A stretch of DNA of 36,809 nucleotides, from positions 1 to 36,809 of the forward strand of contig JAAYVJ010000460.1 of the NCBI GenBank assembly GCA_012517265.1, in the 5' to 3' direction. The DNA comes from Planctomycetota bacterium. Lineage in GTDB: Bacteria > Planctomycetota > Phycisphaerae > Sedimentisphaerales > Anaerobacaceae. Position numbers and translations under genes: made by a program. Below the pieces are notes generated by a model. It ran no database searches. It was not told the DNA's origin and saw only the letters and a list, made by a program, of their open reading frames with translations. Positions 7,032 through 25,412 of the stretch are shown here, piece after piece (the stretch's first letter is position 1; the number at the start of each line of letters is the position of its first letter).

Positions 7032-7496
7032 TCACCCGCAGGGCGAAACGTCCCGGATGAGAGCGATTTCGTCGCACTCGTCTTGCTTGGGACACCGGGC
7101 GCAATCGCTCCAGACCTTCATGGGCAATTCCTCTTTCTTCACAACCGCAAACCCGGCCCGCTCGAAGAACTTGGGCTCCAGGGTCAGGGCGAAGACACGC
7201 GGAACACCGAGCTGCCGGGCCTGATCCACAGCCGCCGCGACCAGCGCCATGCCCACTCCCTTGCCTCGCTCGTCCGCCGCCACGGCCAGCGACTTCACCT
7301 CCGCCAGATCCGACCAGATCACCTCCAGTGCGCAGCAGCCGATCAGCCGGCCGTCCCGCTCGGCCACCAGGAAGGTCTGGAGGTTCTCATAGATCTCGGC
7401 CATGGACCGAAAGAGCATTTTGTCGTGCTCGGCGTAGAAATTGATCAGCGAACAGATCGCCTTGGCGTCCCGAATTCTTGCGTTGCGTACTTTCAT
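7032..7496 (-). CDS. GNAT-family N-acetyltransferase, short ArgA-like N-acetylglutamate synthase type
   Basis: MKVRNARIRDAKAICSLINFYAEHDKMLFRSMAEIYENLQTF...AEVKSLAVAADERGKGVGMALV...FFERAGF...VWSDCARCPKQDECDEIAL. Start ATG at 7496 rather than the longer ORF start. Confidence 0.85.
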   Translation of the reverse strand: MKVRNARIRDAKAICSLINFYAEHDKMLFRSMAEIYENLQTFLVAERDGRLIGCCALEVIWSDLAEVKSLAVAADERGKGVGMALVAAAVDQARQLGVPRVFALTLEPKFFERAGFAVVKKEELPMKVWSDCARCPKQDECDEIALIRDVSPCG

Positions 7497-7503
7497 GGGC
7501 TCA

Positions 7504-7532
7504 AGTATACTACCTCGCTTTCGCGACTTCAA
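7504..7532 (-). promoter_or_regulatory. Candidate sigma70-type promoter for the GNAT gene
   Basis: Minus strand TTGAAG (7532..7527), 17-nt spacer, TATACT (7509..7504). The -10 ends 7 nt before the ATG. Confidence 0.5.
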
Positions 7533-7577
7533 TGCCGCAATCCCGGGCCGGAGGGTTGCGCAAAAAACGAAAAAACA

Positions 7578-7606
7578 CTGGCAAAAAGGACGGCAGCCAC
7601 TACAAT
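7578..7606 (+). promoter_or_regulatory. Candidate sigma70-type promoter for the dehydratase/ACP/KS operon
   Basis: CTGGCA (7578..7583), 17-nt spacer, TACAAT (7601..7606), followed by the ATG at 7640. Confidence 0.45.
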
Positions 7607-7639
7607 GACGCCGGTTCGTGTTCGGTGACCCAGGGATTC

Positions 7640-8113
7640 ATGAAGTTCATACTGATAGACAAGATAGTCTCGCTCGAAGAAGGCAAGACGCTGACTGCAG
7701 CCAAGTGCGTATCGCTGGCCGAGGAATATCTGGGGGATCATTTCCCCACGTTCCCCGTACTGCCCGGGGTTCTGTTGTTGCAGGGCCTCGTGGAATCGGC
7801 AAGCTGGCTCGTCCGCAAGACCGAGGGATTTGCCCACAGCATGATCCTTCTGGAAGAGGCAAGAAACGTCAAGTACAAGAGTTTCCTGGCGCCGGGGTCA
7901 CGGATTGAGTACATAGTCCAGGCAAAGACCATTGAGGAGAACGTGAGCAGTTTCACCGGGTGCGGAACCGCCGACGGGGAGAAGATCCTCGATGCGAGGT
8001 TCGGCCTGAGACACTTCAACCTGGCAGACCGCCGCTCGGCCATGGCCCCCGTGGACGCCCAGGTGATCGCAGCGATGAAAAACCGCTACAGCCTGCTCAC
8101 GCAGCAGTGCTGA
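7640..8113 (+). CDS. FabZ/FabA-like hotdog 3-hydroxyacyl-ACP dehydratase, subunit 1 (His34 present, Glu replaced by Gln48)
   Basis: MKFILIDKIVSLEEGKTLTAAKCVSLAEEYLGDHFPTFPVLPGVLLLQGLVESASWLV aligns to FabZ GHFPxxPxMPGVLxxEAxAQ. Confidence 0.85.
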   Translation: MKFILIDKIVSLEEGKTLTAAKCVSLAEEYLGDHFPTFPVLPGVLLLQGLVESASWLVRKTEGFAHSMILLEEARNVKYKSFLAPGSRIEYIVQAKTIEENVSSFTGCGTADGEKILDARFGLRHFNLADRRSAMAPVDAQVIAAMKNRYSLLTQQC

Positions 8114-8166
8114 CCGAGGTTGTGAAAAGGATTTTCGGAAGGAACTGACCGGAGGTAGCAGCAACC

Positions 8167-8562
8167 ATGACCATGAGTCGGGATGAGATTTTCGAGAAAG
8201 TCCAGGAAGTGCTTGTGGACGCCCTGGGAGTGGACGACGACGAAGTGACGGCCGACGCCACGCTGATGGGCGATCTGGGGGCCGAGAGCATCGACTTCCT
8301 GGACATCGTGTTCCGTCTGGAGAAGGCGTTCGGAATGAAGGTGCCTCGCGAGGAGCTGTTCCCGGTGGAAGGACTGCTCAACAGCACCGATCTGGTCAGC
8401 AACGGCAGACTCACCGACAAGGGGCTGGCCGAGCTGCGGGCCAGGGTCCCGCACACGGACCTGACCGAGTTCGAGAAGAACCCGGACATCAACAAACTGG
8501 CCGACCTGTTCACTGTGAACGCCATCGTCAACTACGTCGCCAGCCGCCTGAACGCGGCGTAA
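8167..8562 (+). CDS. Acyl carrier protein, long atypical form
   Basis: 131 aa; LGAESIDFLDIVFRLEKAFGMKVPREELFP matches the ACP phosphopantetheine Ser region; C-terminal DLFTVNAIVNYVASRL matches ACP helix IV. Confidence 0.9.
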   Translation: MTMSRDEIFEKVQEVLVDALGVDDDEVTADATLMGDLGAESIDFLDIVFRLEKAFGMKVPREELFPVEGLLNSTDLVSNGRLTDKGLAELRARVPHTDLTEFEKNPDINKLADLFTVNAIVNYVASRLNAA

Positions 8563-8581
8563 CAACGAACCGGGCTGCAGC

Positions 8582-9088
8582 ATGCGCTGGATCTGGATTG
8601 ACAAGTTCGTCGAGTTTGAAAGCGGACGGCGGGCGGTGTCCGTCAAGAACGTCTCCATGGCCGAGGAACACGTGCACGACAACTTCCCCGGCTTTCCGAT
8701 GATGCCCGAGTGCCTCATGATCGAGGCGATGGCCCAAACCGGCGGGATCCTCGTCGGCGAGGCCCGTGACTTCCAGGAAAAGGTCGTTCTGGCCAAGATC
8801 AGCAAGGCGGTCTTCTTCGACTACGTCGTGCCGGGCGACACCCTCCGGCTTGAAGCCTGCATGCAGTCTATCGCGTCGGAGGCCGCAACCACCAGCGGCC
8901 GGATCACGCGGGCCGACCAGTTGATCGCCGAGATCGATCTGATGTTCAGCCACGTCGACCAGAATCTCGCCGGCAAGAAGTTCCCGGAGGACAACTTCGT
9001 GTTCACCGGGTTGTTCACGTCTCTCCTGCGGGATGTCGCCCTGAATCACGCTTGCCCGGAATCGCAGAAGACGGAGTCCGGGCAATGA
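8582..9088 (+). CDS. FabZ/FabA-like hotdog 3-hydroxyacyl-ACP dehydratase, subunit 2 (Glu48 present, His replaced by Asn34)
   Basis: MRWIWIDKFVEFESGRRAVSVKNVSMAEEHVHDNFPGFPMMPECLMIEAMAQTGGILVGEARDF aligns to FabZ. Confidence 0.87.
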   Translation: MRWIWIDKFVEFESGRRAVSVKNVSMAEEHVHDNFPGFPMMPECLMIEAMAQTGGILVGEARDFQEKVVLAKISKAVFFDYVVPGDTLRLEACMQSIASEAATTSGRITRADQLIAEIDLMFSHVDQNLAGKKFPEDNFVFTGLFTSLLRDVALNHACPESQKTESGQ

Positions 9089-10413
9089 CATCGGCGCGCG
9101 TCGTCATCACGGGGCTCGGCGCGGTCAGTCCGCTGGGCTTGACCGCTGCGGAACTGTGGTCTGGCCTGACTGCCGGGCGGTGCGGCATCGCGAGAATCAA
9201 GGCGTTCGATCCGACCGGCCTTCCCTGCGAACTGGCGGGCGAGGTCCCCCCTTATCGAGTTCAGGACCACGTCCCCAAGGTCCTTCGAAAGGCCGCCAAG
9301 TTGATGTGCCGCGACATCGAACTGTCCGTCATCGCGGCCAAGGAAGCGGTGGCCAGCAGCGGCCTGATCACCAAGGGAGTCGATCCCGAGAAGGCGAACG
9401 TCGATCCCACACGGTTCGCAATCAATATCGGCGCGGGGATGATCAGTTGCGACCTGGAGGAACTGGGCCCCGCCACTGCCGCCAGCGTCACCGACGGGCG
9501 GTTCGACCTCCGCAAGTGGGGCAAGGACGGGATGCGGCAGATCACCCCCCTATGGCTGCTCAAGTACCTGCCCAACATGCTGGCCTGCCATATCGGGATC
9601 ATTCACGACATCCAGGGGCCCAGCAACACGATCACCTGCGCCGAAGCCTCGGCCCACCTGGCGATCGGGGAAGCCGCCCAGATCATCGCCCGCGGCAGCG
9701 CAGACATCGCCCTGGCGGGCGGCGCTGAGGCGAAAGTCAACATGATGATCATGGTCCGACAGAACCTGCTCAAGCGCGTCGTCATGAACCGAAACGACAC
9801 GCCCGAAAGCGCGTGCAGGCCCTTCGACGTCGATGCGGCCGGCGCGGTGTTCGGCGAGGGAGGCGGCGTCCTGGTGCTGGAGAGTCTCGACCATGCACAG
9901 GCCCGCGACGCCCGAATCCTGGCGGAGATAGCCGGAATCGGCCAGAGCCACAGCATTCACACTCCGTATGCGGAGATGGAACCTGAGGGGACCGGAATCC
10001 GCATCGCCGTCGAGAAGGCGATGGCCGACGCGGGCATCGGGCCGGAGGATCTGGACCTGATCCTGCCGCACGGAACCGGCGTGCCGCACGACGACTTGGC
10101 CGAAGCTCGGGCGCTTGAAGCCGCTCTGGGCCCGGCGGTTCGTCGCATTCCGGTGTGGCCGACCAAGAGCTTGTTGAGCACGACGGGAGCCGCCGCCGGG
10201 GCGCTGGACATCATCGCGGCCGTGAAGGCGATGAATGAGCGTCTGATCCCGCCGGCGAGGAACTTCACCAAGCCGGCCAGCGGATGTGATTTGAGCATCC
10301 TGACCCAGAGTCGAGGAGGCAGAATCCGTCACGCACTGTGCTGCAGCCACACCTTCGGCGGGCAAACCGCCGCGGTTGTGCTCAAGTCCATCGACGGAGG
10401 CGCCGGACGGTAG
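9085..10413 (+). CDS. Beta-ketoacyl-ACP synthase family protein, variant (second catalytic His missing)
   Basis: RVVITGLGAVSPLG start; TITCAEASAHLAIGEA (Cys retained), LPHGTGVPHDDLAEA (first His), TKSLLSTTGAAAGALD where KSxxGHxxGAAG is expected. ATG at 9085 overlaps the upstream stop by 4 bp. Confidence 0.9.
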   Translation: MTSARVVITGLGAVSPLGLTAAELWSGLTAGRCGIARIKAFDPTGLPCELAGEVPPYRVQDHVPKVLRKAAKLMCRDIELSVIAAKEAVASSGLITKGVDPEKANVDPTRFAINIGAGMISCDLEELGPATAASVTDGRFDLRKWGKDGMRQITPLWLLKYLPNMLACHIGIIHDIQGPSNTITCAEASAHLAIGEAAQIIARGSADIALAGGAEAKVNMMIMVRQNLLKRVVMNRNDTPESACRPFDVDAAGAVFGEGGGVLVLESLDHAQARDARILAEIAGIGQSHSIHTPYAEMEPEGTGIRIAVEKAMADAGIGPEDLDLILPHGTGVPHDDLAEARALEAALGPAVRRIPVWPTKSLLSTTGAAAGALDIIAAVKAMNERLIPPARNFTKPASGCDLSILTQSRGGRIRHALCCSHTFGGQTAAVVLKSIDGGAGR

Positions 10414-11742
10414 ATGAGAACGTCAGAAACACGCGAACGAGTCGTCGTCACGGGGATGGGAATCGTCTGCCCGCTCGGCCACGACGTGGCATCCCTCTGG
10501 GAGGGGCTCCTGTCCGGCCGCAGCGGCGTCGGACGCACCACCCTCTTCGACGCCTCGACGTTTCCCACAACATTTGACGCCGAGGTCAAGGGCTACGACT
10601 TCCGCCGGCACATCCGGCATCCGGAATTCCATGAGGGGTGTAGCCGCGGATCCGGGTTCGTCCTCGGCGCCACGGTCCAAGCCTGCAAACAGGCCAAAAT
10701 CGAGGTGGAGACCAGCAAGCCGGCCGATGGAATCGATCGCACGCGGATGGGCATCTACCTCGGCGCCGGCGAAGGCTCGCTCGACAATGACTCGTTCTTC
10801 GGCAGCATCATCGCCGGCTGGGATGCCGAGCAACAGCGGATGGTCTGGCCTCGAAGCATCCGCGTCGCGATGGGGCAAATGTCAGCCGTGCGGGAGCTCG
10901 AACAGGAGCCGAACATGGCCGCCGGCCACACCGCGATGCTCACCGGAGCCCGGGGGCCGGTCCGAAGCTGTCTGACGGCCTGCGCCGCCAGCACGCAAGC
11001 CGTGGGCGAAGCCAGCATGATCATCCGACGGGGCGACGCGGACATCATGGTCGCCGGCGGCGTCCACTCGATGATCCACCCCCTGGGAATTACAGGCTTC
11101 AACCTGCTGACCGCCCTGTCGCAACGAAACGACAGTCCCGAAACGGCATCCCGTCCGTTCAGCGGCACCCGGGACGGCTTCGTCATCGGCGAGGGCGCGG
11201 CGATTCTGATCCTGGAGTCGCTGACCAGCGCTCGCAGACGAGGCGTTCCCATCCTGGCCGAGATCGCCGGCTACGGGTGCAGTTCGGACGCTTTTCGCGT
11301 GACCGACATGCACGAGGAGGGCCGCGGCGCGGCCCAGGCGATGATCGCCGCGCTGGCGGACGCTGGCCTGACGACCGATGACATCGACTACATCAACACC
11401 CACGGCACGAGCACGCAGGAGAACGACTCCATCGAAACCCTGGCCATCAAAACCGTTTTCAAGGATCGGGCCAGGCAGGTTCCGGTCAGCAGCATCAAAA
11501 GCATGCTCGGACATCTGATCGGGGCCGCAGGCGCGGCGGAGATCATCGCCTCCGTGCTGGCGATTCACCACAACATCGTGCCCCCGACGATGAACCTGCA
11601 CGATCCCGATCCCAAGCTGGATCTTGATTACGTGCCGAACGCGCCGCGCAAAATGCCCGTGAACACGGTGATGAAGGAGTCCTTCGGTTTCGGCGGCCAG
11701 AACAACGTCGTGATCCTAAAACGATTCCGTGAAGAAGCATAG
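10414..11742 (+). CDS. Beta-ketoacyl-ACP synthase (FabF-like), complete catalytic triad
   Basis: RVVVTGMGIVCPLG; CLTACAASTQAVGEA (Cys); INTHGTSTQENDSIE (His); IKSMLGHLIGAAGAAE (His); FGFGGQNNVVIL C-terminus. Confidence 0.93.
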   Translation: MRTSETRERVVVTGMGIVCPLGHDVASLWEGLLSGRSGVGRTTLFDASTFPTTFDAEVKGYDFRRHIRHPEFHEGCSRGSGFVLGATVQACKQAKIEVETSKPADGIDRTRMGIYLGAGEGSLDNDSFFGSIIAGWDAEQQRMVWPRSIRVAMGQMSAVRELEQEPNMAAGHTAMLTGARGPVRSCLTACAASTQAVGEASMIIRRGDADIMVAGGVHSMIHPLGITGFNLLTALSQRNDSPETASRPFSGTRDGFVIGEGAAILILESLTSARRRGVPILAEIAGYGCSSDAFRVTDMHEEGRGAAQAMIAALADAGLTTDDIDYINTHGTSTQENDSIETLAIKTVFKDRARQVPVSSIKSMLGHLIGAAGAAEIIASVLAIHHNIVPPTMNLHDPDPKLDLDYVPNAPRKMPVNTVMKESFGFGGQNNVVILKRFREEA

Positions 11743-13193: not shown

Positions 13194-16100
13194 CTAGTTG
13201 TCTTTCAGGCTCTCGTCCAGCTCGTCGGACATCTGGTTCAATTCGCCCTGGATGGTTTCGAGCTTCTGCTTGGGCTTCTCGATCTGCGCCGCGGTCTCCG
13301 GCGACAGCGCTTCTCCGTGGTCGATGACGTACGGCGTGATGAACACGATCAGCTCGTTGTTCGCCTTCGTGACATCATTGTGCCGGAACGCCCCGCCGAT
13401 CAGGGGCAGATCGCCCAGGAGCGGGACCTTCTTCTCGATCTTGCTGTCGGTCTGGAAGAGAATGCCGCCCAACATGAGGGTCTGGCCGTCCTCGACGATC
13501 ATGTTCGTGGTGCTCTCCATGACTCGCCGCACGGGCTGGCTGTTGATCGTATCGCCCGTCAGGTCGGACAGCAATACCGTGACGATCATGTCGACGTTCT
13601 TCTCCGGCGTGATGCTCGGACGCACCGCCAGCTGCATGCCGACTCGCATGTAGTCGAAGCTCTGGGTGACGCGGCCGCCGGTTTCGGACGTGGAGGCGTT
13701 CGTCTGGAAGGCGACCATCTGGCCCTTGAAGAAGCTCGCCTCTTCGTTGTCCTCGGTCCACAACGACTGCTGGTTGAGGATCTGGGCGTTGACCTTCTTG
13801 ACCAGAAAGTCCAGCATGCCCGTGACGCTCGTTCCCACCTTGAGCGTGGCCGAGCCTCGCTCCTCGAGATACGTCAACTCGGACAAGGCGGTGACCGAGT
13901 TCTCTCCGACGGAGAAAGCCCCCGCCGCATTCGACGACAATTGGAGGCCTAGAGAGGTCAGGTCCTGGTGGTCTATCTCGACAACGACCGCCTTGACCAA
14001 GACCTGCTTGCCGGGAACATCCAGGCCCCGAATCGTCTCCTCAATGCTGGCCTGGAACTCCGGCGGCGCCAGCACCAGGATCGATTTGCTCCGCGGGTCG
14101 GGCACGAACCGCACCCGTCCGATCACGTTGCTGATCGGCTCCTGGTCGGTCCTGCCTCTGGCCCCGCCGCCGCCGGTGGACCACCACGGAGTGTACTCGC
14201 TCGAGCCGCCCTGGTTGCCGTTGGGATTTCCGCCTTGGTTGCTGTTCCTCGCGTTGCCCTGGTTCTGCGAGTTTCTGCTGTCCTCCATGGAGTACTGGCC
14301 GATGCCCTGCGTGGTCCGGCGAACGCGGGCATTCGTCCCGGGCTCGTTGAACATGGCGTTGAGCCGCTCGGCAAGATCCTCCGTGTCGGCGTACTTGATC
14401 TGAACGACGTGTGGAATCTCGGCCATCTCCTGGCGGTCCAGTTCGTAAATGAGCTGTTCGATGACCGCGTACGCCTGCGGAATCTTGCTCACGACGATGA
14501 TCTTCTTGGTCCCCGTCACCTCTTCGAAGGTCAGTTGCCCGTACAGGGGACCGACGATCTTCTGCCGCTGGTCCATCTCGTCGCCGTAGAGAAGCATGCG
14601 AATCAGCGACCGGCTGGAGTCGGATTCCTGAGAGAAGAGTTTGCGGAGCAGCGTGGCCATCTGGACCGGGTCCGAGTTCTTCAGTTCGATGATCCGCGGC
14701 CTGACCTGGTCCACGTCCAGCGGCACGTCCCACTCCTCGATCTGCTTGCGGATCTTGACCATGTTCTCCGCGGAGGCGATCACCGTGACCTGGCCCATCG
14801 AGGGATACGAGATGGCTTTCACCGTCTCGCTGGGCTGGATATTGCGGTACCGCGAGGAGCGGTAGCCGTAGCTGTAGGAACTGCCCGACTCGGACTCGTA
14901 CAGCCCTTCGAGGTTGGTCTTGATCTGGTCGGGGTCGGCATGCTTGAGCTTGAAGACCTCGGTGAGGAACTGCCCCGGCATGATGTCGACCTCGGCGATC
15001 AGCTTCTTGACCATCTCCCGCAGATCCGCCCGGCCGAAAATCATGATCTGCCGGGATTGCGACAGGGCCTGCACGAGCACGTTCGGCCGCAGCTCCGTGC
15101 CCGGCATCTGCTCCAACGACTGCTGGATTCGCCGGGCCACTTCTTCCGTATCGGCGTAGACGATCGACACCGTCTCGTATTCCGCTTTGATCGGCTCGTC
15201 CTGGTCCATCTTCTGGATCCATTCGCCAATCTGGCGGATGGCGTCGGACGAGCCCCTTGCGATGATCCACTTTCGCTTCGGCTCGGGGATCAGAACGATG
15301 GGCGTGTCGTCGGCGCCGATGACGACCGAACTGGCGCTCTTGCCGCTGCCACCGGAAACCTGGCTGCTCCGCCGCGCCGCGCCGCCACTTCGAAGTTGCC
15401 CTCCCCGCCGGCTGTCCGCCGGACCGCCCAGGAGCATGCGCAGCAACTGCACCATCTCCGTCGGATCGCCGCTGTGGACGTCGAAGATCTCGGTGACCAT
15501 CCGGCCGGCGTCAGGCACGTCGAACTGCGAGATGATGTTCTCGATCCGCATCAGGTTGGCGACCGAGTCGATCACCAGCAGCGTGCCGGTCGATTCGTCG
15601 GCGCCGACGTGCCCGTACTCGCTGACCAGCGGCTTGACGATCTCGCCCATCTGCGACGGAGGATAGTTCTGCAGCTTGAAGAACTTCTGAACGATCTGGC
15701 TGGTGTCTTGGAACGCCGCCAGGGGCTGTTCGGGACGAACAATCGGGTGGATGCCCAGCTTGGCTTCGCTCAGCGGCTTCAGGAAGATCGTGTCGTCCAT
15801 CTCCTCCGGCGAGAAGCCCTTCATCCGCAGGGCGCTGTAGATCCTCAGCAGAGCCTTGCTCCGGGGCAGCTTGTCCGGCGCGTAGATGGTGATCTTCTGC
15901 TTCATCGCTTCGTCGCTGGGAATTACGGCTTTGCCGGTCCACTGGGCGATCTTCTCGATGATGTTCTTCATCTCGACGTCTTTGAGGTTCACGGCCTCGA
16001 GGGGATCGTTCGGATCCTCCCGGGCCTTGGCCTCGGCAGGCTTGGCCTCCGCAGGCTTGGCGTCGCCGGACGTGATCGCCTCGGGCTTGGCGGTCTGGCC

Positions 16101-16382
16101 GGGGCCCTCGCTGAACTGGGGAGTCGGCCGATTCGGCTCTTCGCCGGCCGGCTTGTTGGGGTCGCCCTTGGTTGCCGCGGACTGCGCCGCGTTGGGATCG
16201 AGCTTTGGAGTCGTCGCCCTGTTAGGCTCGTTTGGGCCCGACCCTTTGCGGCTGGGCTGCGCGCCGGCCTTGCTTTCAACTCCCGACAGACCCGCTGCGG
16301 GCGACTGGAAGCCGACCTGCCAGACGATCACGCCGGCCGCCACCAAAACCAGCATCCATAAGACTACTTTTGACCGTTCCAA
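13194..16382 (-). CDS. gspD: Type II secretion system secretin GspD, with an enlarged N-domain region
   Basis: 1062 aa; N0-like domain, repeated N1-type modules ending in '...xxIxxxD', then secretin domain VLVKAVVVEIDHQDLTSLGLQLS ... VEDGQTLMLGGILFQTDSKIEKKVPLLGDLPLIGGAFRHNDVTKANNELIVFITPYVI. Apparent TTG start. Confidence 0.93.
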   Translation of the reverse strand: MERSKVVLWMLVLVAAGVIVWQVGFQSPAAGLSGVESKAGAQPSRKGSGPNEPNRATTPKLDPNAAQSAATKGDPNKPAGEEPNRPTPQFSEGPGQTAKPEAITSGDAKPAEAKPAEAKAREDPNDPLEAVNLKDVEMKNIIEKIAQWTGKAVIPSDEAMKQKITIYAPDKLPRSKALLRIYSALRMKGFSPEEMDDTIFLKPLSEAKLGIHPIVRPEQPLAAFQDTSQIVQKFFKLQNYPPSQMGEIVKPLVSEYGHVGADESTGTLLVIDSVANLMRIENIISQFDVPDAGRMVTEIFDVHSGDPTEMVQLLRMLLGGPADSRRGGQLRSGGAARRSSQVSGGSGKSASSVVIGADDTPIVLIPEPKRKWIIARGSSDAIRQIGEWIQKMDQDEPIKAEYETVSIVYADTEEVARRIQQSLEQMPGTELRPNVLVQALSQSRQIMIFGRADLREMVKKLIAEVDIMPGQFLTEVFKLKHADPDQIKTNLEGLYESESGSSYSYGYRSSRYRNIQPSETVKAISYPSMGQVTVIASAENMVKIRKQIEEWDVPLDVDQVRPRIIELKNSDPVQMATLLRKLFSQESDSSRSLIRMLLYGDEMDQRQKIVGPLYGQLTFEEVTGTKKIIVVSKIPQAYAVIEQLIYELDRQEMAEIPHVVQIKYADTEDLAERLNAMFNEPGTNARVRRTTQGIGQYSMEDSRNSQNQGNARNSNQGGNPNGNQGGSSEYTPWWSTGGGGARGRTDQEPISNVIGRVRFVPDPRSKSILVLAPPEFQASIEETIRGLDVPGKQVLVKAVVVEIDHQDLTSLGLQLSSNAAGAFSVGENSVTALSELTYLEERGSATLKVGTSVTGMLDFLVKKVNAQILNQQSLWTEDNEEASFFKGQMVAFQTNASTSETGGRVTQSFDYMRVGMQLAVRPSITPEKNVDMIVTVLLSDLTGDTINSQPVRRVMESTTNMIVEDGQTLMLGGILFQTDSKIEKKVPLLGDLPLIGGAFRHNDVTKANNELIVFITPYVIDHGEALSPETAAQIEKPKQKLETIQGELNQMSDELDESLKDN

Positions 16383-16421: not shown

Positions 16422-16835
16422 TCAACTCTGACCTGCGGCGTTGGGCTCCGCGACGGTCTTCTCGCTGCGTTGACTGCTGTTGGGTTCCTGCACCTTGGGC
16501 GGTTGTCTGCTTCGCCGCCCGCCGACTCGCTCTCGCACCTGCTCCCGGAATTTGTCCTTTTCCTCTTGCGTCGCGTTCTCCATTTTCTCGATCATCTCGG
16601 CATGCCGCTGTTTGATCTGGGCCCGGACCTCGGGGGTATCCTTCGTCTGCCCGCCGCCGGGCGCTGGGCCCTTGGGAGCCTCGCTTTGAACCGCCTTCGT
16701 GGTGTTCGCATCACTGGAAGTCGCCGGCGTGTTGCTTCCCATCCGAGCCTGGTGGATCAACAGACCCACGCCGTATGCGGCGATCAAAACCGCCGCGATC
16801 ACAACCACTGTGACAATCGAGTTCGATGACTTCAT
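16422..16835 (-). CDS. Hypothetical single-TM protein with charged helical tail, within the T2SS operon
   Basis: MKSSNSIVTVVVIAAVLIAAYGVGLLIHQ (TM), then TPEVRAQIKQRHAEMIEKMENATQEEKDKFREQVRERV. Co-oriented with gsp genes. Confidence 0.6.
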   Translation of the reverse strand: MKSSNSIVTVVVIAAVLIAAYGVGLLIHQARMGSNTPATSSDANTTKAVQSEAPKGPAPGGGQTKDTPEVRAQIKQRHAEMIEKMENATQEEKDKFREQVRERVGGRRSRQPPKVQEPNSSQRSEKTVAEPNAAGQS

Positions 16836-16859
16836 TCCCTGCAACCTTTCGCATCCAAA

Positions 16860-17549
16860 TCACTGTGCTCTTCTGCTGAGTCGTTCGCGCATCTGCTGGC
16901 GAGCCTGTTGTCGTTCCTCCGGGCTCATGTTCTGCCATTGGGACCGCATCCGTTCCCGCTCCTCCGGCGACAACTGCGAGCCGCCCTGCCCCGTCTGGGA
17001 GGGGCCGCCGCTTGGACCGCCCGCCGCCGCCTGGGCCTTTCCCCCCGGGCCCGGCCTGCCGCCGGAACGTGAGGGACCGGGGCGATCCTCAGAGGAGCCG
17101 CCGCTGCCGCCGGAACCGATGGGCGTGAATTCCTTCTCCTGCCCGTCCCACACCACCTTCACCTTCGTCGGTTCGATGGCGACGATCTTCGCGTCGCCCA
17201 CGCTTTCGCCGACCTTGCACCACTTGCCGTTGATCAGCGCCTCGTCGCCCAGGATGCCGAGCACTTCGCTGATCGGATGCTGACGCGGCGGCGTCTTGAC
17301 GAACAGACTCTTCTTCTTGAGTTCCTCCGCCGAGGTCCTGCCCGCAGCGAGCAGCTTGCCCATGTCGGGCGCAGCCCCCGAGCCGGTCGCATCGGCGACG
17401 AGCTTCGCGGCCACGCCGCGAGCTTCTGCCGAAGACGCGAGAAAGCCGGCGACTCTCAGAAACGTGAGAGCCCCCAGCAGAATCGTCGTGGCTGCAAGCA
17501 CCTTGGCGTAGAAATCCGTCTTCTCTCTGCTGAATTCAGTCTTCATCAT
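16860..17549 (-). CDS. GspC/PilP-like inner-membrane protein with C-terminal SPEER-type charged repeat
   Basis: N-terminal TM; KKSLFVKTPPRQHPISEVLGILGDEALINGKWCKVGESVGDAKIVAIEPTKVKVVWDGQEKEFTPIG resembles the GspC homology region; tail SPEERERMRSQWQNMSPEERQQARQQMRERL. Confidence 0.6.
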   Translation of the reverse strand: MMKTEFSREKTDFYAKVLAATTILLGALTFLRVAGFLASSAEARGVAAKLVADATGSGAAPDMGKLLAAGRTSAEELKKKSLFVKTPPRQHPISEVLGILGDEALINGKWCKVGESVGDAKIVAIEPTKVKVVWDGQEKEFTPIGSGGSGGSSEDRPGPSRSGGRPGPGGKAQAAAGGPSGGPSQTGQGGSQLSPEERERMRSQWQNMSPEERQQARQQMRERLSRRAQ

Positions 17550-17587
17550 GCGTTACCACACAACCCCACCCGCCGCCGGCGTTTCGC

Positions 17588-18319
17588 CTACATGTGTTGC
17601 TCCATCTGATCGACGACGCGTGCCTTCTCATCGTCGGACATCTTGTTCCATTCCTCCTGGGCCCTGGCCTTCTCCTCGGGCGAGGCCGAATTCCACTTCT
17701 CCATCAGCACCGCGCGGAGCCGCGGCGAAAGCGTCACGCCCAGCCAGCCCAGCGGGTCGTCTTGTTCGACGGCGGCCGCCGTCTCGACTTTCGGCGTCTC
17801 GGCCGGCTTGCCCTCGTTCTTCTTGGCCTCCGCCGGGGCTTCCTTCTTGGGCTCGCCCCTGGCCACCGGCGGACCGGACGGTTCGGACGTCGCCGCTCCA
17901 ATCGGGGCGAGATTCGTCGTCTTGCCCTCCCATTCAACCGTCACATAGGTCGGCCGAACCTCCACGATCGTCGCGTCGCCGATCTTCGCCCCGGCCTTGT
18001 ACCACTGGCCCGCGACGAAAGCCTCGTCCCCCAGAATGCCGTCAACCTGTTTGACCGGATTCTCCTTCGGCGGTTCCTTGATGAACAGGTTCTTTCCCTT
18101 GATCGCATCGGCCGTCTTGCGGGCCTGCTCCAAACACCCTTTCAGGCCGTCCGGATCGCGATCGGCCTTCGCCACGCCGCCCAGTCCCTGCATCCGTCCT
18201 CGCTCGGCGCAGAAGGCCGCCACCTTGGCGAAAGCCGACGCGCCAAACAGAAGGGCGACCGCCATCAGCATCGGTGCAACCCGGTCGTTCCGATTTGTGT
18301 CGACTGTCTTCACCTGCAC
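17588..18319 (-). CDS. GspC/PilP-like protein, paralogue of the adjacent ORF
   Basis: KGKNLFIKEPPKENPVKQVDGILGDEAFVAGQWYKAGAKIGDATIVEVRPTYVTVEWEGKTTNLAPIG matches the 16860..17549 product domain; tail SPEEKARAQEEWNKMSDDEKARVVDQMEQHM. GTG start. Confidence 0.62.
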   Translation of the reverse strand: MQVKTVDTNRNDRVAPMLMAVALLFGASAFAKVAAFCAERGRMQGLGGVAKADRDPDGLKGCLEQARKTADAIKGKNLFIKEPPKENPVKQVDGILGDEAFVAGQWYKAGAKIGDATIVEVRPTYVTVEWEGKTTNLAPIGAATSEPSGPPVARGEPKKEAPAEAKKNEGKPAETPKVETAAAVEQDDPLGWLGVTLSPRLRAVLMEKWNSASPEEKARAQEEWNKMSDDEKARVVDQMEQHM

Positions 18320-18349: not shown

Positions 18350-18886
18350 TCACTTGACGAACGTGCTGACCGTCAGATCGATCTCAATCTCCTTGTCCTT
18401 CCTCTTCTCCGGCGGCTCCTTTGTGTCACACTGGAACCGCAACTCCTCGATCCCGACCAGGTACGGATTCTCTTTCAGATTCGAAAGGAAGTCGAGCAAT
18501 TGGTCAAACTTGCACTTGCCCTTGCACTTGATCTTGAGCACCCGGTACGGCACGCTCCGGGGCTTCCTCACCGGCAAGAACTGCAAAGGCTCGGTGTTGA
18601 TCCCGGCCTTCTTAAGTTGCTCGTGCAACTTGTCCCGGAACAGGAATTTCTGTCTGTCCTCGACCTGCGGCTGCTCGATCACCGGCACCATCATCGCCAG
18701 GGCCGCCTGACGGTTCTGGTCCGTCTCGACCTCGCCGAGCTTGTTCTTGGCGGCCGCCAGGGTGCGCCGGGCCTCGCTCCAGCGGTCGTACCCCTTGGCT
18801 CCATATGTCAGAACGAAGATGAACACCGCCGACGCCGCCCCGAACAGGACCAGGCGTCTCTCGCGTGGATTCAGTTTTCTTGTCAT
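18350..18886 (-). CDS. GspM/PilO-like T2SS inner-membrane protein
   Basis: 178 aa; MTRKLNPRERRLVLFGAASAVFIFVLTYGAKGYDRW (N-terminal TM), coiled coil, then ferredoxin-like region; position after the GspL-like gene. Confidence 0.65.
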   Translation of the reverse strand: MTRKLNPRERRLVLFGAASAVFIFVLTYGAKGYDRWSEARRTLAAAKNKLGEVETDQNRQAALAMMVPVIEQPQVEDRQKFLFRDKLHEQLKKAGINTEPLQFLPVRKPRSVPYRVLKIKCKGKCKFDQLLDFLSNLKENPYLVGIEELRFQCDTKEPPEKRKDKEIEIDLTVSTFVK

Positions 18887-18929: not shown

Positions 18930-20375
18930 TCACAGCGCCGCTTCCTTCTTCGAGAACTCCTTGTATTGGAACGCGATCGTGAACTTGATCTTCTTGGTCT
19001 TGGAATCGCGTGCGTTGTTCACGATCTCCGCGTCCTTGAGTTCCTTGTGCTCCCGCAGATTCGCCTGGAACTTCCACATCTGCTCCATGTTGTCCGCCTG
19101 GCCGGTCACCGAGACCGCCTGGCCCTTCTTAAACTGAAAAGCATCGAGCACGACGCCCTCGTTCTGGCCGGCGTTGATCAGCGTCAACAACTCCAGCATG
19201 TCCGGCCGGTTGCGGGCCACGGTCTTGACCAGCGACTGTTGCTGGAGAGACGCCTGGAACTCCGGCTGCCGGGCCATCGCATCCCACCGCTTGGCGCTGG
19301 CTACGTCGGTGAAGTAGACCGTCAGAAGAAGGACGATCAACATAACCGCCGCCGCCGCGCCCGCCAGCGCCACCGAACGCCACGCGGACGCCGCTTTTTC
19401 CGCCTCCTGCTCCTGGAGCACGCGGTCGAAGAGGTTGAGCGCTCCTGACGACCTGTCCAAGGCGAGCAAGGCAAGGCCCAGCGGCGTGCGATACTCGTAG
19501 GCCTCCTTGGCTCCAAAGCCGGCCGGAAGCCGGAGATTCGCCCCGTCCGCAACGAGGGCCCGCGCCGAGACGCCCGCGGCGTTCAATTGCTCGACCAACC
19601 TCGCTATCGCTTCGCCGCCGTCCGAGAGAACAACCACCGGCCAGGGTCCCGTGCCGTCCCAGCCGAACGAGGTCAACATGATCTGCAGTTCATGCAGGAA
19701 CCGATCCATCAGGGCGGCCGTCTCCGAGGCCGGCGAGAGCGCCGCCATCCCCATATCGAGCACCCCGGCCCGCGTGATCAAGCCGTTCTGAACCAGGCAC
19801 ACCTGCGCATTCTCGGCGCCGACGCTCAGCACCAGCGCCTGCGTTTCCCGATTGGAGAAGAGGCTCTGCCACGCCTTGGCCGTTCCCTCGCACGACAGCA
19901 GAATGGTGCGAGGCCGAAAGTCCTTCACTGCCGCAGCGAACTTGTGAAGATGCTCCTTGCGGGCCGCTGCAATCGTGACATCCAGGTTGCCGTTGTTCGC
20001 GTGGCTCGCGCGCCAGGCGACCTCGATCTGGTCCGGGGGCAGCGGAAGCAACGACTCGGCCTGCATCTTCACGATGGCCGCAATCTCGTGGTCGTCCACG
20101 GCCGGGGCGCTGATTTGATAGAACGCCACGCCGGTCGAATCCAGCCCGACCACGGCCGGGGAGTGCCGCCTGGCGGTCTTCTCCCGGCTGTCGGCATTCG
20201 TTGCGACCCCGCATTCGATCGCGAAACTGTTCCACGTCTGCTGCTCGGCCGGCAGTTCCTTGGCCCACAGCAGCTCGACGTGTCCGTCCAGACGGCGTAC
20301 CTCGACGGCCTTGAACCGGGCGTCTTCCTTCGCGACCGCGATCACCGAGTGCGGTGTCTTCTCGCCTTTGCTCAT
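18930..20375 (-). CDS. GspL-like protein (PilM-like actin-fold domain fused to TM and PilN-like domain)
   Basis: From MSKGEKTPHSVIAVAKEDARFKAVEVRRLDG; PPDQIEVAWRASH, VVGLDSTGVAFYQI; TM AGAAAAVMLIVLLLTVYF; C-terminal PilN-like segment. Its start overlaps the gspK stop. Confidence 0.72.
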   Translation of the reverse strand: MSKGEKTPHSVIAVAKEDARFKAVEVRRLDGHVELLWAKELPAEQQTWNSFAIECGVATNADSREKTARRHSPAVVGLDSTGVAFYQISAPAVDDHEIAAIVKMQAESLLPLPPDQIEVAWRASHANNGNLDVTIAAARKEHLHKFAAAVKDFRPRTILLSCEGTAKAWQSLFSNRETQALVLSVGAENAQVCLVQNGLITRAGVLDMGMAALSPASETAALMDRFLHELQIMLTSFGWDGTGPWPVVVLSDGGEAIARLVEQLNAAGVSARALVADGANLRLPAGFGAKEAYEYRTPLGLALLALDRSSGALNLFDRVLQEQEAEKAASAWRSVALAGAAAAVMLIVLLLTVYFTDVASAKRWDAMARQPEFQASLQQQSLVKTVARNRPDMLELLTLINAGQNEGVVLDAFQFKKGQAVSVTGQADNMEQMWKFQANLREHKELKDAEIVNNARDSKTKKIKFTIAFQYKEFSKKEAAL

Positions 20376-21745
20376 CAGAAGTTGGCTCCCTGATACCAAT
20401 AGAGAATCGTGCACGGCGACGCGCTGCGATCGACGACGCTTTCGGTTCGAAAAGTCGCGCCGGTGACGTCCGCCGTGGCAAGGCACTGAATCGTGAACAC
20501 ATCCGAGCGAACGGTGACTACGTCCGCAACGCTCTTGAATCGTTCGAGACTGATCGACGATTGATTGAGCAGATCCGCCACGCTCGTGTACCCGTACGCA
20601 AGGGCGGCGCGGTCGGCGACGATCGACCTCGCGATCTGCTCGGCCTGGTCGTCCACGCCGAAGAGCGTCTTGAGGACCGCCACCGGCGCGGTGTTGATGT
20701 TGATCTTGCCGGGGAGTTTCTTCTCGCCCGAGATGGTGATGCGATCGGCGATCTGGCCGAACGTCTGCATGTCCATGGGTTCGGCCTGATCCTGGTTACC
20801 GCCCGAACCCTCGGAGGCGGTCTTGGGGCTGCGGTCGTTGATCAGATCCGCGATGCTGCGGAAACCGCCGCCGCGGTTGTCCACGATCCACTTGGCCTGC
20901 GAGGCCTTCAGACCCAGTCCGTCCTGAAGCTGCTGCTGGTTCGCCTGGTTGATGTTGATCCGATCCTCGCCGGCGCCGTCCACGTTCCGCTCATACGAAT
21001 AGCAGGTCAGATACGCGATCCAGCCCTGGTCGAGACGGTCGTCGCCGTTGTCCGGCGGCGGACTCAGATCCCCGTCCCGCTCGTTGGCGTCCAGCAGGCC
21101 GTTGAGATTGGCGTCCTCGCCGTAGAGCTTCTCCTCCGTGACGCCCTTGACCTTGAGCAATTCCCGCACCGTCTTGAACGGCCCGTTGCGGATCTTGTAG
21201 GGGATGGGCAGATTCTCGTAGTATCCCGCCTCGGCGCCGAGCGGCTGCGGATCGTCGTTGTCGTCCCGCCAGTCCACAATCGCTTCGGCGATCTCCTCCT
21301 CCATGTACGGCAGAGCCATGAACTGGTCTTTCGTCGCCACGTTGATATTCAGCTTGCCCGCTTCGTCGTACACGCGGACGCTGTATCGACACCGCTCCAG
21401 GACCACGTCGTTGAAATCCTCGTCATTGTCGCTCCAGAGATCCGCCAGACAGTCGCTGTCTTTCGGATCCTCATTGAGAATTCCGATCGCGTTCTCCGTT
21501 CCCGCCCGGCAGGCCCACTTGCAACGGACCTCGTCGGTGGCCGCCATGGCCATCTTCATATTGAGCCGGCTGGTCTGCCCGACCACGGCAACGACGGCCG
21601 TCATCACCGCGAGGATCCAGAGCACCGCGACCAGAACCAGCCCGCTCCCCCGCACGTCCCAGGGACAGACCCGGGGCGCAAGGCGTGCGGCCCGTGCCTT
21701 TGCCCCGTCAAATCCTCTGTTGTCCCATGGCATCTGCATCGTCAT
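20375..21745 (-). CDS. gspK: Type II secretion system minor pseudopilin GspK
   Basis: GSGLVLVAVLWILAVMTAVVAVVGQTSRLNMKMA; DEAGKLNINVATKDQFMALP; repeated helix-hairpin-helix-like NINTAPVAVLKTLFG. Start ATG 21745 overlaps the gspJ stop. Confidence 0.88.
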   Translation of the reverse strand: MTMQMPWDNRGFDGAKARAARLAPRVCPWDVRGSGLVLVAVLWILAVMTAVVAVVGQTSRLNMKMAMAATDEVRCKWACRAGTENAIGILNEDPKDSDCLADLWSDNDEDFNDVVLERCRYSVRVYDEAGKLNINVATKDQFMALPYMEEEIAEAIVDWRDDNDDPQPLGAEAGYYENLPIPYKIRNGPFKTVRELLKVKGVTEEKLYGEDANLNGLLDANERDGDLSPPPDNGDDRLDQGWIAYLTCYSYERNVDGAGEDRININQANQQQLQDGLGLKASQAKWIVDNRGGGFRSIADLINDRSPKTASEGSGGNQDQAEPMDMQTFGQIADRITISGEKKLPGKININTAPVAVLKTLFGVDDQAEQIARSIVADRAALAYGYTSVADLLNQSSISLERFKSVADVVTVRSDVFTIQCLATADVTGATFRTESVVDRSASPCTILYWYQGANF

Positions 21746-22542
21746 CGACCTTGAGGTCCTTGGTTTCCCTGATCGCTCGGGTTGCCCTGTCCTTGGTTCC
21801 CCTGATCGCCAGAGTTCTGCCGATTCGATCCCTCGTCCCCCTGGGGCGATTCGCCCTGCTGCTGATCCCCCGCCGAGACCTCCGCCATCCGCGGAAACGC
21901 GACAGTAAAGACTTCCAGAACCGGGTCCCCCTTCTCTGGCGGAACCGTCCCCAGCGTGACTTCGATCAGCTTCGGGAGCGTCCGCATTTCCTCCGTCCAC
22001 TCGCCTTGCCATTCCTGGCCGTCGTAGAACCGGATGTAGAAGATCCCGATCTTGTCGCTAATCGGCGTCAGGACGCCGCGGGGCTCGCGTTCCTTGTCCG
22101 GGTTGGGCCACAGCCGGCGAAAGAGCACGGTCTGCTCCTCGGGCGACCCGCCGACGCCGGAAGGCGGGGCCTCGCCCTGATGGCTCCCCAAGAAGTACTC
22201 CACCTCATAGACGTCGCCCTCGGGCTGATCGACCCGCGCCTTGGCACGCCCCACCGTATAGAACGTCAGGAACGGAGGGCTGTCGATGTCGGAGCCCTGC
22301 GAAACCCCGAGCAATTTCATGTTCTCAGGGCTCGGGTCGCGGTAGAGATTGGCCAGGTCCTGCGCGATCATCCTGGCGGCGAATCGAATCTCGCCGTGCA
22401 CCTCGCTGACCTTGCCGACAGTCTGGGCGGTGTGGGAGACGGCGTTCATCGCGCCGACCGCGACGATCGCGATGAAGCCGCTGAGCGTCGAGGCGACCAG
22501 GACCTCCGCGAGCGTGAATCCCTTGTTCCGCATGCGTGTCAT
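21742..22542 (-). CDS. gspJ: Type II secretion system minor pseudopilin GspJ
   Basis: MTRMRNKGFTLAEVLVASTLSGFIAIVAVGAMNAV prepilin signal; GspJ position in operon. Start 22542 overlaps the upstream stop. Confidence 0.82.
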   Translation of the reverse strand: MTRMRNKGFTLAEVLVASTLSGFIAIVAVGAMNAVSHTAQTVGKVSEVHGEIRFAARMIAQDLANLYRDPSPENMKLLGVSQGSDIDSPPFLTFYTVGRAKARVDQPEGDVYEVEYFLGSHQGEAPPSGVGGSPEEQTVLFRRLWPNPDKEREPRGVLTPISDKIGIFYIRFYDGQEWQGEWTEEMRTLPKLIEVTLGTVPPEKGDPVLEVFTVAFPRMAEVSAGDQQQGESPQGDEGSNRQNSGDQGNQGQGNPSDQGNQGPQGR

Positions 22543-22964
22543 GGGGTCTGCGATTCCTCCGGGGTGGCCTCGCTGGCGAGCGAGGCGCCGTTCAGCATGG
22601 TCTGAGCCGTCACGTGATAGGGCCGCTTGCCCTCCAGCCAGGTCACCGTGATTTTCACCGCATACAGATTGTCGGTCCCCGTGTACTCCGTGGCCACCAC
22701 CCACTGGTAGCCCGGTTCGAGCTGATCGTTCACGCCCTCCATCCGACCGGCCTCGATGAACTGGTCGATCCCAACCTGATCGATCACCGTCAACTGCTGA
22801 TCGATCACCGAAGCCGCCATCTCGTAATGCCGGTGCAGACGGGTGCTGGTCAGAGCGTTCGTGCTGATCGCGCCGAGAGTCAGCACGGTCGCCGAAAGGA
22901 TCATGCTGGCCACCAGCGTCTCGACCAGGTTGAAGCCGCGTTTTCGCACCGTCGTCCGCATCAT
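22539..22964 (-). CDS. gspI: Type II secretion system minor pseudopilin GspI-like
   Basis: MMRTTVRKRGFNLVETLVASMILSATVLTLGAISTNAL prepilin signal; operon position. Confidence 0.78.
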   Translation of the reverse strand: MMRTTVRKRGFNLVETLVASMILSATVLTLGAISTNALTSTRLHRHYEMAASVIDQQLTVIDQVGIDQFIEAGRMEGVNDQLEPGYQWVVATEYTGTDNLYAVKITVTWLEGKRPYHVTAQTMLNGASLASEATPEESQTP

Positions 22965-23602
22965 CGCCTCGATGTCCCGTTTCCTTCTTCCAGGTCCAGA
23001 TCGACGCTCACCCCCCTGACGTCCGTGGTCAGGCCGGGATAGAGATCCGCCTTGCCCGTCGCGGCGACCACCGCGATCGAGCAGTGGGTCTTGCCGTCGC
23101 CGATCTGGACGATCGCCGGCTCCGCCGAGCCGCTGGGGAAGAACATGACCCGGCTCTCCAGGTCCGTCTGGGCCGAGCCGGCTTCACCGTACGACAGCAA
23201 CTGCACGTCCTCGAACTTCACGTCGCCCTCGAACTTCACCGGCTTGCAGAAGTAGTCCCGCACGAGAACCTTGTGCGACTCGCCCGTCTGGGGATCGGTC
23301 TGCGTGGTCGCCAGAAGAAAACCCCGGTTGTTCGGATCGATCTGCAGCTCGTACGGCCGCTGCTGCTCGATCGCCATGATCCGGGCGTACCTCGCCATCA
23401 GGAGAAACTGGCGGGCCGCCTTCTCCACGAGCAGCTTCTTGTACGTCCCGACGCAATACCCGCCGCCCAGCGTGCCCAGCATCGCGATGATGGCCACCAC
23501 GAGCAGGATCTCCGTCAGGGTGAACCCGCAGGCCGGTCTTCGATTTCCGATTATTGATCTTCGATCTGAGGACACGACGTCTGGCTCTCTGCAAATCAGC
23601 AA
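22961..23602 (-). CDS. gspH: Type II secretion system minor pseudopilin GspH-like
   Basis: ACGFTLTEILLVVAIIAMLGTLGGGYCVGTYKKLLVEKAARQFLLMARYARIMAIEQQRPYELQID. True start may be internal to the ORF. Confidence 0.8.
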   Translation of the reverse strand: MLICREPDVVSSDRRSIIGNRRPACGFTLTEILLVVAIIAMLGTLGGGYCVGTYKKLLVEKAARQFLLMARYARIMAIEQQRPYELQIDPNNRGFLLATTQTDPQTGESHKVLVRDYFCKPVKFEGDVKFEDVQLLSYGEAGSAQTDLESRVMFFPSGSAEPAIVQIGDGKTHCSIAVVAATGKADLYPGLTTDVRGVSVDLDLEEGNGTSRR

Positions 23603-23629: not shown

Positions 23630-24061
23630 TCAGTCATTGACGATATCCGCGTTCTCGCCTTCGCCGCCTTCCTGGCCGTCGGCCCCGAGGCAAATCAGGT
23701 CGTAGCTCCCGACGTTCGTCTGCCCCTCTGAAATGTACTGGTACTCGCGGCCCCAGGGGTCCAGGAGCTGGCTCTTCTTGAGATAGGGGCCCGCCCATTT
23801 CTCCTCCAGCTCCGGCGGAGCGACCAGCAGGGCTTCGAGCCCGCCTTCGGACTCGTCCGGCAGCCGCCCGCAGTCATACTGGAATCTCGCCAGGGAGTCC
23901 TCGATGATCGCCATCTTCGCTCGGGCGATGTCCCCTTTGGTCTTGCCCATCCCGCGGAACACGCGGGGCACCAGCATGGCCGCCAGCATCGTGATGATTC
24001 CGACCACCACGAGCAGTTCGACCAGCGTGAAGGCCTTTCTTTGGCGTTTGGTACGTTTCAT
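23630..24061 (-). CDS. gspG: Type II secretion system major pseudopilin GspG
   Basis: MKRTKRQRKAFTLVELLVVVGIITMLAAMLVPRVF; LLDPWGREYQYISEGQ...YDLICLGADGQEGGEGENADI is the GspG C-terminal signature. Confidence 0.95.
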   Translation of the reverse strand: MKRTKRQRKAFTLVELLVVVGIITMLAAMLVPRVFRGMGKTKGDIARAKMAIIEDSLARFQYDCGRLPDESEGGLEALLVAPPELEEKWAGPYLKKSQLLDPWGREYQYISEGQTNVGSYDLICLGADGQEGGEGENADIVND

Positions 24062-24128
24062 CCGACCACCTTTCGTATTGATCACGCTCACCTCGTCATT
24101 CTCATGCTCACGCGATTCGGTTCGCCCG

Positions 24129-25412
24129 TCAGGCACCGCCGGCGCTGAGCGACATCATCACGATCGGGAGGAGCGCCGCCGCGATCACGAACCCGATCAC
24201 GATGGCCAGCAACAGAATCAGCAGAGCGGGAAACAGGCTCATGAAGCGGTTGATCGCCGCATCGGCGTCCGCATCGAACGTGTCCGCCGCGTTCAACAGC
24301 AACTCATCAAGTTTACCCGTCTGCTCGCCGATCGCAACGATCTGCACCAGCAACGGCGGAAAATACCCCGAATCTTCCAGCGGCCCGGCCAGCGATTCGC
24401 CGCGCTTGACCTTCTCGGCCACCTGATCGACCTCTCGCGCCAGCACCTCGTTGCCCAGGGTGTCGCGAACGACCGCAAGCGACTCCAGAATGGTAACGCC
24501 GCCCTGCGTCAGCGCGCCCAGCGTACGAGCAAACCGCCCTACCGCAATGGTCCGCAGAACCGACCCGAGGACCGGGATCTTCAGGCGAAACGCGTCCCAT
24601 TGCGCCCGGCCCGTCGTCCGAGTCCATCGGCGAAGCTTGACGAGCCCTGCGACGATCGCGGCCAAGACGATCCAGCCGGGGACGCTGGTGAAAACAACCC
24701 GAAAGAAATGACTGGCGACCAGGAGAACGCGTGTCGGCAGAGGCATCGCCGACGAAGGCATGTCCACCGTTCCGAGGATCTTGGGCAACATGACGGTGAC
24801 GACGAGCACCGCCGAGGCCATGCCCAGACCCAACAGAAAGATCGGGTAGGCCGCCGCGGTCTTCATGTTCGATTTGATCTTCTCCTCCCGGGCCAGGATC
24901 ATCGCCAGTTGCGTGCTGGTCTGTTCGAGAATGCCGCCGGTTTCGCCGACGCGGATCATCGACAGGTAAAGGGCGTTGAAAACCCCTTTGTGCTCGGCCA
25001 GAGCCTCGGAAAGGGATTTGCCCCCGCTGACGTCCTTGGTCAGCCGGTCGAACATCCGCTTCATCGCGGGCCTTCGCTGCTGTTTTCGCATCAAATCCAG
25101 GCAGCTGAGCAAGGGAAGTCCCGCCCGCACGGCGGTGCTCAGCTGCGTGGTCATGGCCAGCACATCCCGGCTGGAGACGCGTCCATTGCGGAGGCGGTCC
25201 ATGAAACCGGACTCTCCAGGCGCCCCCGCGGCGTCTGCGCCGTGTGACTCGCTCTGAGAAGCCTCGTGCCCCTGGCCTTTTTCAATCAACTCCATGACGA
25301 AATGGCCCCGTTCGGTCAGCGCGGCCACCGCGCTGCGGCGGTCGGTTGCGTCCAGCACACCCGCGACGTGCGCTCCTCCTCGATCGACTGCTTTGTAGGC
25401 AAACTGGCCCAA
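24129..25412 (-). CDS. gspF: Type II secretion system inner-membrane platform protein GspF
   Basis: 427 aa; FAYKAVDRGGAHVAGVLDATDRRSAVAALTERG; TTQLSTAVRAGLPLLSCLDLM; MIRVGETGGILEQTSTQLA; VAIGEQTGKLDELLLNAADTFD. Confidence 0.95.
   Translation of the reverse strand: MGQFAYKAVDRGGAHVAGVLDATDRRSAVAALTERGHFVMELIEKGQGHEASQSESHGADAAGAPGESGFMDRLRNGRVSSRDVLAMTTQLSTAVRAGLPLLSCLDLMRKQQRRPAMKRMFDRLTKDVSGGKSLSEALAEHKGVFNALYLSMIRVGETGGILEQTSTQLAMILAREEKIKSNMKTAAAYPIFLLGLGMASAVLVVTVMLPKILGTVDMPSSAMPLPTRVLLVASHFFRVVFTSVPGWIVLAAIVAGLVKLRRWTRTTGRAQWDAFRLKIPVLGSVLRTIAVGRFARTLGALTQGGVTILESLAVVRDTLGNEVLAREVDQVAEKVKRGESLAGPLEDSGYFPPLLVQIVAIGEQTGKLDELLLNAADTFDADADAAINRFMSLFPALLILLLAIVIGFVIAAALLPIVMMSLSAGGA

Follow-up and report, generated by a model that had tools for sequence, protein, structure and literature searches.

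A planctomycete GspD secretin with six N1-type modules, and the lengthening of its relatives by a two-domain cassette

The type II secretion locus

The window, a stretch of 36,809 nt from a Planctomycetota bacterium of the class Phycisphaerae, carries on its reverse strand what is, judged by gene content and order, a complete type II secretion system (T2SS) operon, gspEFGHIJKLM-(C-like)x2-D, with gspD as its last gene. The genes upstream of gspD, with the evidence on which each is named, are as follows:

25538-27271 (-), GspE ATPase: T2SSE and MshEN profiles
24129-25412 (-), GspF: T2SSF profile
23630-24136 (-), GspG, major pseudopilin: T2SSG profile
22961-23602 (-), GspH: GspH profile (slightly below cut-off) and N_methyl
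22539-22964 (-), GspI-like pseudopilin: prepilin-type N-terminus GFNLVETLVASMILS and position
21742-22704 (-), GspJ: T2SSJ profile
20375-22012 (-), GspK: T2SSK profile
18930-20486 (-), GspL (PilM/PilN-like): PilN and PilM_2 profiles
18350-18886 (-), GspM: T2SSM_b profile
17588-18319 (-), GspC-like protein 1: position and sequence pattern
16860-17549 (-), GspC-like protein 2, a TM helix and a small beta-rich domain: position and sequence pattern
16422-16844 (-), small single-helix protein kept beside gspD: synteny

The same gene order around gspD is found in relatives. The two GspC-like proteins (16860-18319) are encoded in tandem, share 34% identity with each other and end in charged C-terminal tails. 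Neither matched a Pfam profile, a PDB search with a GspC-like protein found nothing relevant, and we infer the name GspC for both from position and sequence pattern. GspC must bind the N0 domain of GspD through its HR domain. GspD/PulD/XcpQ operons carry one GspC gene, in contrast to the two GspC-like genes beside this gspD. Downstream of gspD lies serS in convergent orientation, adjoined by a small cluster at 7478-11742 (+) that comprises a FabA/FabZ-like dehydratase gene and two beta-ketoacyl synthase genes.

The gspD reading frame and its domains are laid out as follows; the TTG start is preceded, a few bases 5' of it, by GAGGTGA:

13194-16382 (-), gspD, type II secretion secretin, 1062 aa, TTG start: TIGR02517 and Pfam
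16314-16373 (-), residues 4-23, N-terminal hydrophobic helix, signal peptide or anchor: sequence, and a helix in the AlphaFold model
15801-15995 (-), residues 130-194, N0 domain of GspD: PF21305 and PDB profile match to XcpQ N0-N1
15696-15770 (-), residues 205-229, N0-N1 'wedge' linker of GspD (..PLAAFQDTSQIVQ): equivalent of PulD loop 7
15522-15695 (-), residues 230-287, N1-type module 1 (FFKLQNYPPSQ), the canonical N1: Pfam, HMM, AlphaFold
15207-15497 (-), residues 296-392, N1-type module 2 (EIFDVHSGDPTEM), with a Gly/Ser-rich insert: HMM, AlphaFold
14988-15179 (-), residues 402-465, N1-type module 3 (ETVSIVYADTEEV): HMM, AlphaFold
14730-14966 (-), residues 473-551, N1-type module 4 (EVFKLKHADPDQI), with a Ser/Tyr-rich insert: HMM, AlphaFold
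14430-14696 (-), residues 563-651, N1-type module 5 (RIIELKNSDPVQM), with an insert: HMM, AlphaFold
14022-14417 (-), residues 656-787, N1-type module 6 (HVVQIKYADTEDL), with a long Gly/Ser/Asn/Gln-rich insert, the canonical N3: Pfam, HMM, PDB profile match, AlphaFold
13323-13808 (-), residues 859-1020, secretin beta-barrel domain: PF00263, 3e-38

Six N1-type modules in a GspD

By profile and fold comparison, the protein belongs squarely with GspD/PulD. It scores 366.1 bits against the GspD equivalog model TIGR02517 (cut-off 351.35), whereas the PilQ, SctC and MshL models all remain below their own cut-offs. Membership in PilQ was rejected, as Pfam gives no AMIN match and TIGR02515 reaches 157 bits against a cut-off of 284. 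A GspD-type N0 (PF21305, 34 bits, cut-off 27) stands at the N-terminus, the single Secretin domain directly follows the last N1-type module, as in GspD (PF00263; PDB profile match), and the E, F, G-K, L and M genes lie alongside. The protein thus shares with the proteobacterial GspD/PulD/XcpQ an N0, N1-type modules, a secretin barrel, a T2SS operon and an N0-N1 linker of ~23-26 aa, but has six N1-type modules where those have three. The three-module layout (N1-N3) is typical of GspD without defining the family; since secretins are known to differ in the number of their N domains (PMC8563730), we regard the six-module protein as a GspD variant and not as a non-member. At 1062 aa it compares with a secretin family mean of 555 +/- 151 aa (PMC4827864).

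An earlier note on this DNA had read six N1-type modules after the N0 in place of the usual three, and Pfam, a module HMM and AlphaFold each give six. The Secretin_N search that it had proposed as a check yields six separate PF03958 stretches (whole-protein E 6e-55) rather than only three. The module HMM, built from the protein's own six modules and then iterated on homologues, recovers the identical six; it matches none of 1000 shuffled copies and 4 of 1,478 non-secretin ORFs, all four of which are pieces of related secretins at contig ends or a frame break. In an AlphaFold model of the full-length single chain (alignment of 17 sequences), also among the proposed checks, beta-alpha-beta-beta-alpha units are seen at residues 230-287, 296-392, 402-465, 473-551, 563-651 and 656-787. 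The mean pLDDT of this model is low (55.7), with module cores mostly at 65-81, and its pTM of 0.29 means that inter-module geometry cannot be taken from it. Modules 1-4 modelled alone reach a mean pLDDT of 68.9, with module 1 mostly at 80-90. The best Foldseek matches are PulD and GspD, both for the full model (4.6e-20) and for modules 1-4 (1.1e-11); PulD, GspD and XcpQ also lead the PDB matches.

Comparison of an orthologue profile with PDB chains aligns N0 and module 1 with N0-N1 of XcpQ, and module 6 and the barrel with N3-secretin (5wln, 5wq8 and others). On these matches, module 1 is the canonical N1 and module 6 the canonical N3, with three extra modules between them; hence, four modules occupy the place of the single N2 of GspD. 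The Gly/Ser/Asn-rich inserts noted earlier in several modules are borne out for modules 2, 4 and 6, at 48-57% G+S+N+Q against 26% protein-wide, while the module 5 insert is less enriched (35%).

Module number in relatives and the added cassette

A strong match to the window GspD is found in 31 of 61 relatives, and throughout the order the module HMM counts six modules in almost every full-length orthologue of the window type; a comparison with planctomycete GspD was among the checks proposed earlier. Six are likewise present in L099, the GspD of a different family within the class, and in L118, a GspD found elsewhere in the phylum, and the six-module orthologues include those of two single-contig genomes (G025, G058). 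The possibility that six is peculiar to the source genome was therefore rejected. It should also be noted that two window-type orthologues (G007:C225 and G008:C362; L022, L025) each contain one in-frame stop, for which sequencing errors or decay are possible causes.

The source genome itself encodes secretins of 3 (C402), 5 (C338), 4-5 (C262, C763), 6 (the window) and 12 (C107) modules. Those of C262 (L010:7766-11347) and C763 (L013:3149-6439) have an apparent N1-type-like segment ahead of the N0-like domain, an unusual order.

Paralogues and relatives of the window GspD have 8 modules (G015, L076, L079), 12 (G005) or 16 (G007, G008), always six plus a multiple of two. The 12-module paralogue of the source genome (L009:1062-6281 (+), on the short contig C107, with no T2SS genes beside it) consists of an N0 followed by 12 N1-type modules, arranged as four tandem wedge-N1-N2 cassettes and N3-N6. 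Best-match analysis is unambiguous: the first two modules correspond to window modules 1-2, the last four to window modules 3-6, and the remainder are further copies of 1-2; in the 12-module paralogue, these are modules 1-2, 9-12 and 3-8, respectively. The 8-module GspD of G015 lies in the same L-M-C-C-small-D operon; in the loci examined, no T2SS operon adjoins the 12- or 16-module paralogues.

As read from these sequences, the added unit is a wedge linker of about 20 aa together with N1 and N2, and it has been duplicated independently at least three times. The linker (..PLxxIENKNQ[IV]VQ, 19-20 aa) opens the repeated unit and, in the three expansions that arose independently, stands ahead of every N1 that was added; the other linkers are 5-10 aa long. 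It recalls loop 7 of PulD, a stretch of 26 aa that wedges between neighbouring N1 domains (PMC6882859) and that the window's own N0-to-module-1 linker (~23-26 aa) resembles. By analogy with that loop, each new N1 ring would have to carry its own inter-subunit wedge for stability, which is most likely why the cassette includes the linker. The cassette copies share 36-60% identity in protein and 53-72% in DNA (28-47% different) and yet stay in register between species, which argues that they are old and real.

In an IQ-TREE tree of the N3-to-barrel region, separate gains of modules are required for the eight of L034 and L079, the eight of L076 and the 12-16 of a genus-level paralogue clade; partial genes at contig ends were counted low in module number. 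Because the extra modules have to be gained independently, six is likely the ancestral number for the window-type planctomycete GspD.

Far longer arrays were met in a PF00263 survey of secretins in 120 Phycisphaerae genomes, where secretin ORFs reach 6,169 aa. Mega-secretins of 3,300-6,150 aa with 32-62 Secretin_N domains occur across Phycisphaerae families (L082 in G098:C18, L083-L089, L094-L096, L100-L101, L115-L116). Most of the fetched secretins above 3,000 aa, from many families, have 32-44 N1-type modules, and one has 62. Run on the longer arrays, Pfam gives 12, 15/16, 38/39, 41/43 and 31+31 of 62 modules; the 41-domain case is from a single-contig genome, as are the mega-secretins of G062, G088 and G093. 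All secretin ORFs above 2,000 aa among the matches listed for a phylum-wide sample are from Phycisphaerae; the survey outside Planctomycetota covered 14 control genomes. In the tree, the mega-secretins form one clade (97-99% support) apart from the window type. They lie beside T2SS genes where examined, and that of G108, directly 3' of E, F, H, I-like, J, K, L and M genes, is by this context a GspD.

Most of these genomes are fragmented, that of the source organism into 766 contigs, but we reject with near certainty the notion that the counts come from misassembly of repetitive metagenomic DNA or from over-counting by a lenient profile: the six modules have little sequence in common and recur in independent genomes, the single-contig ones included, so that for the six-module case the orthologues already refute it; the cassette copies are 28-47% apart in DNA; and Pfam at its own thresholds gives near-identical module counts, one of them the single-contig 41-domain case. 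Thus, the six-module observation of the earlier note was right and understated: by these comparisons, the family keeps its six modules stably, within a group whose secretins have been lengthened time and again.

Length of the secretin channel

We place at roughly three in four the probability of the reading as a whole, namely a six-ring GspD of a complete T2SS, with a longer vestibule and a module number that changes by a two-domain cassette. About a dozen to fifteen subunits would assemble as in PulD/GspD, into an outer-membrane channel that would export folded proteins, and each N1-type module would form one stacked ring, in which case the vestibule would be three rings longer than that of E. 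coli GspD. PulD, with N0 and three modules and tight N1-N3 packing, is 20 nm long (PMC6882859), and the Thermus thermophilus PilQ, with six rings (N0-N5), measures 35 nm and spans most of a wide (~70 nm) periplasm (PMC5745081, PMC4463427). By analogy with these two, the six modules would amount, with N0, to seven layers stacked on one another and, by our estimate, to a channel ~28-40 nm long. The periplasm of planctomycetes is enlarged and invaginated (PMC5394234); a longer vestibule, the most probable consequence of the six modules, would reach deeper into it and bring N0 nearer to the inner-membrane platform.

Thermus PilQ is a parallel in that extra N1-type modules are stacked as rings and the periplasm of the bacterium is wide, although it serves the type IV pilus and DNA uptake rather than a T2SS, has five N1-type modules and is 757 aa long; no report of cassette duplication in it was found in the literature. 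In the T4aP PilQ of Proteobacteria, the number of N-terminal domains is likewise variable, but it is the AMIN domains that vary (0-3) beside a single Secretin_N (PMC7545093), whereas the window GspD multiplies Secretin_N itself. The pIV of phage f1, with N0 and N3 only, represents the opposite extreme, the N-domain number varying among secretins (PMC8563730). A literature search, mostly among freely accessible papers, found no description of planctomycete or giant secretins and no array of more than five N1-type modules, the five of Thermus PilQ being the largest number that it found described.

The presence of 3-, 5-, 6- and 12-module secretins side by side in one genome makes a simple periplasm-width ruler doubtful, as a single fixed width would not predict them, unless the co-existing lengths serve different sites of an envelope of variable width. 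The same coexistence would suit a neutral drift of module number, in which tandem duplication of the cassette is easy and tolerated and carries no adaptive tie to periplasm width, as would the fact that added cassettes arose at least three times. Nevertheless, six modules are kept across the order and present elsewhere in the phylum, and the cassettes remain in register between species despite divergence to 36-60% identity, probably because they are under selection to remain functional; we consider drift a doubtful explanation.

The extra modules might also not all be closed stacked rings but a flexible string of beads, or a side scaffold that binds substrate or peptidoglycan, and the channel would then not be proportionally longer. 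Disorder of N0-N2 is frequent among the known secretin structures (PMC8563730, PMC6882859), several modules of the window GspD have long disordered Gly/Ser/Asn inserts, some mega-secretins show 3-5 inter-module gaps above 40 aa, and a stack of 62 rings would be more than 100 nm long. However, the linkers are short and uniform: those between the six window modules are of 5-8 aa each, as expected for tightly packed rings, and those of mega-secretins have medians of 9-11 aa, with 61 of 61 at or below 15 aa in the 62-module protein. Furthermore, every N1 copy came with its own duplicate of the wedge linker, which in PulD stabilizes the N1 ring, and the extra N domains of Thermus PilQ do stack as rings (PMC5745081). 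These observations render such an arrangement improbable, and favour stacked rings.

How secretion machines are matched to the thickness of the envelope is poorly understood. Related secretins with added modules, often in two-domain blocks and up to 62, make the length of the export tube look evolutionarily adjustable. We tentatively suggest, at somewhat less than even odds, that secretin length is evolvable and modular, the T2SS secretins of Phycisphaerae growing by N1-type rings, one family by wedge-bearing quanta of two rings and a separate clade up to 62. If all rings stack at ~2.5 nm, by our estimate, the longest tube would extend 100-150 nm or more across the enlarged planctomycete periplasm, which, if true, far exceeds any secretin found described. 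Such a natural series of one secretin, with 6, 8, 12, 16 and, in the separate clade, 32-62 modules, some of them co-existing in single genomes, allows a direct test of the proposition that channel length is set by the number of rings, in bacteria with a wide and invaginated periplasm.
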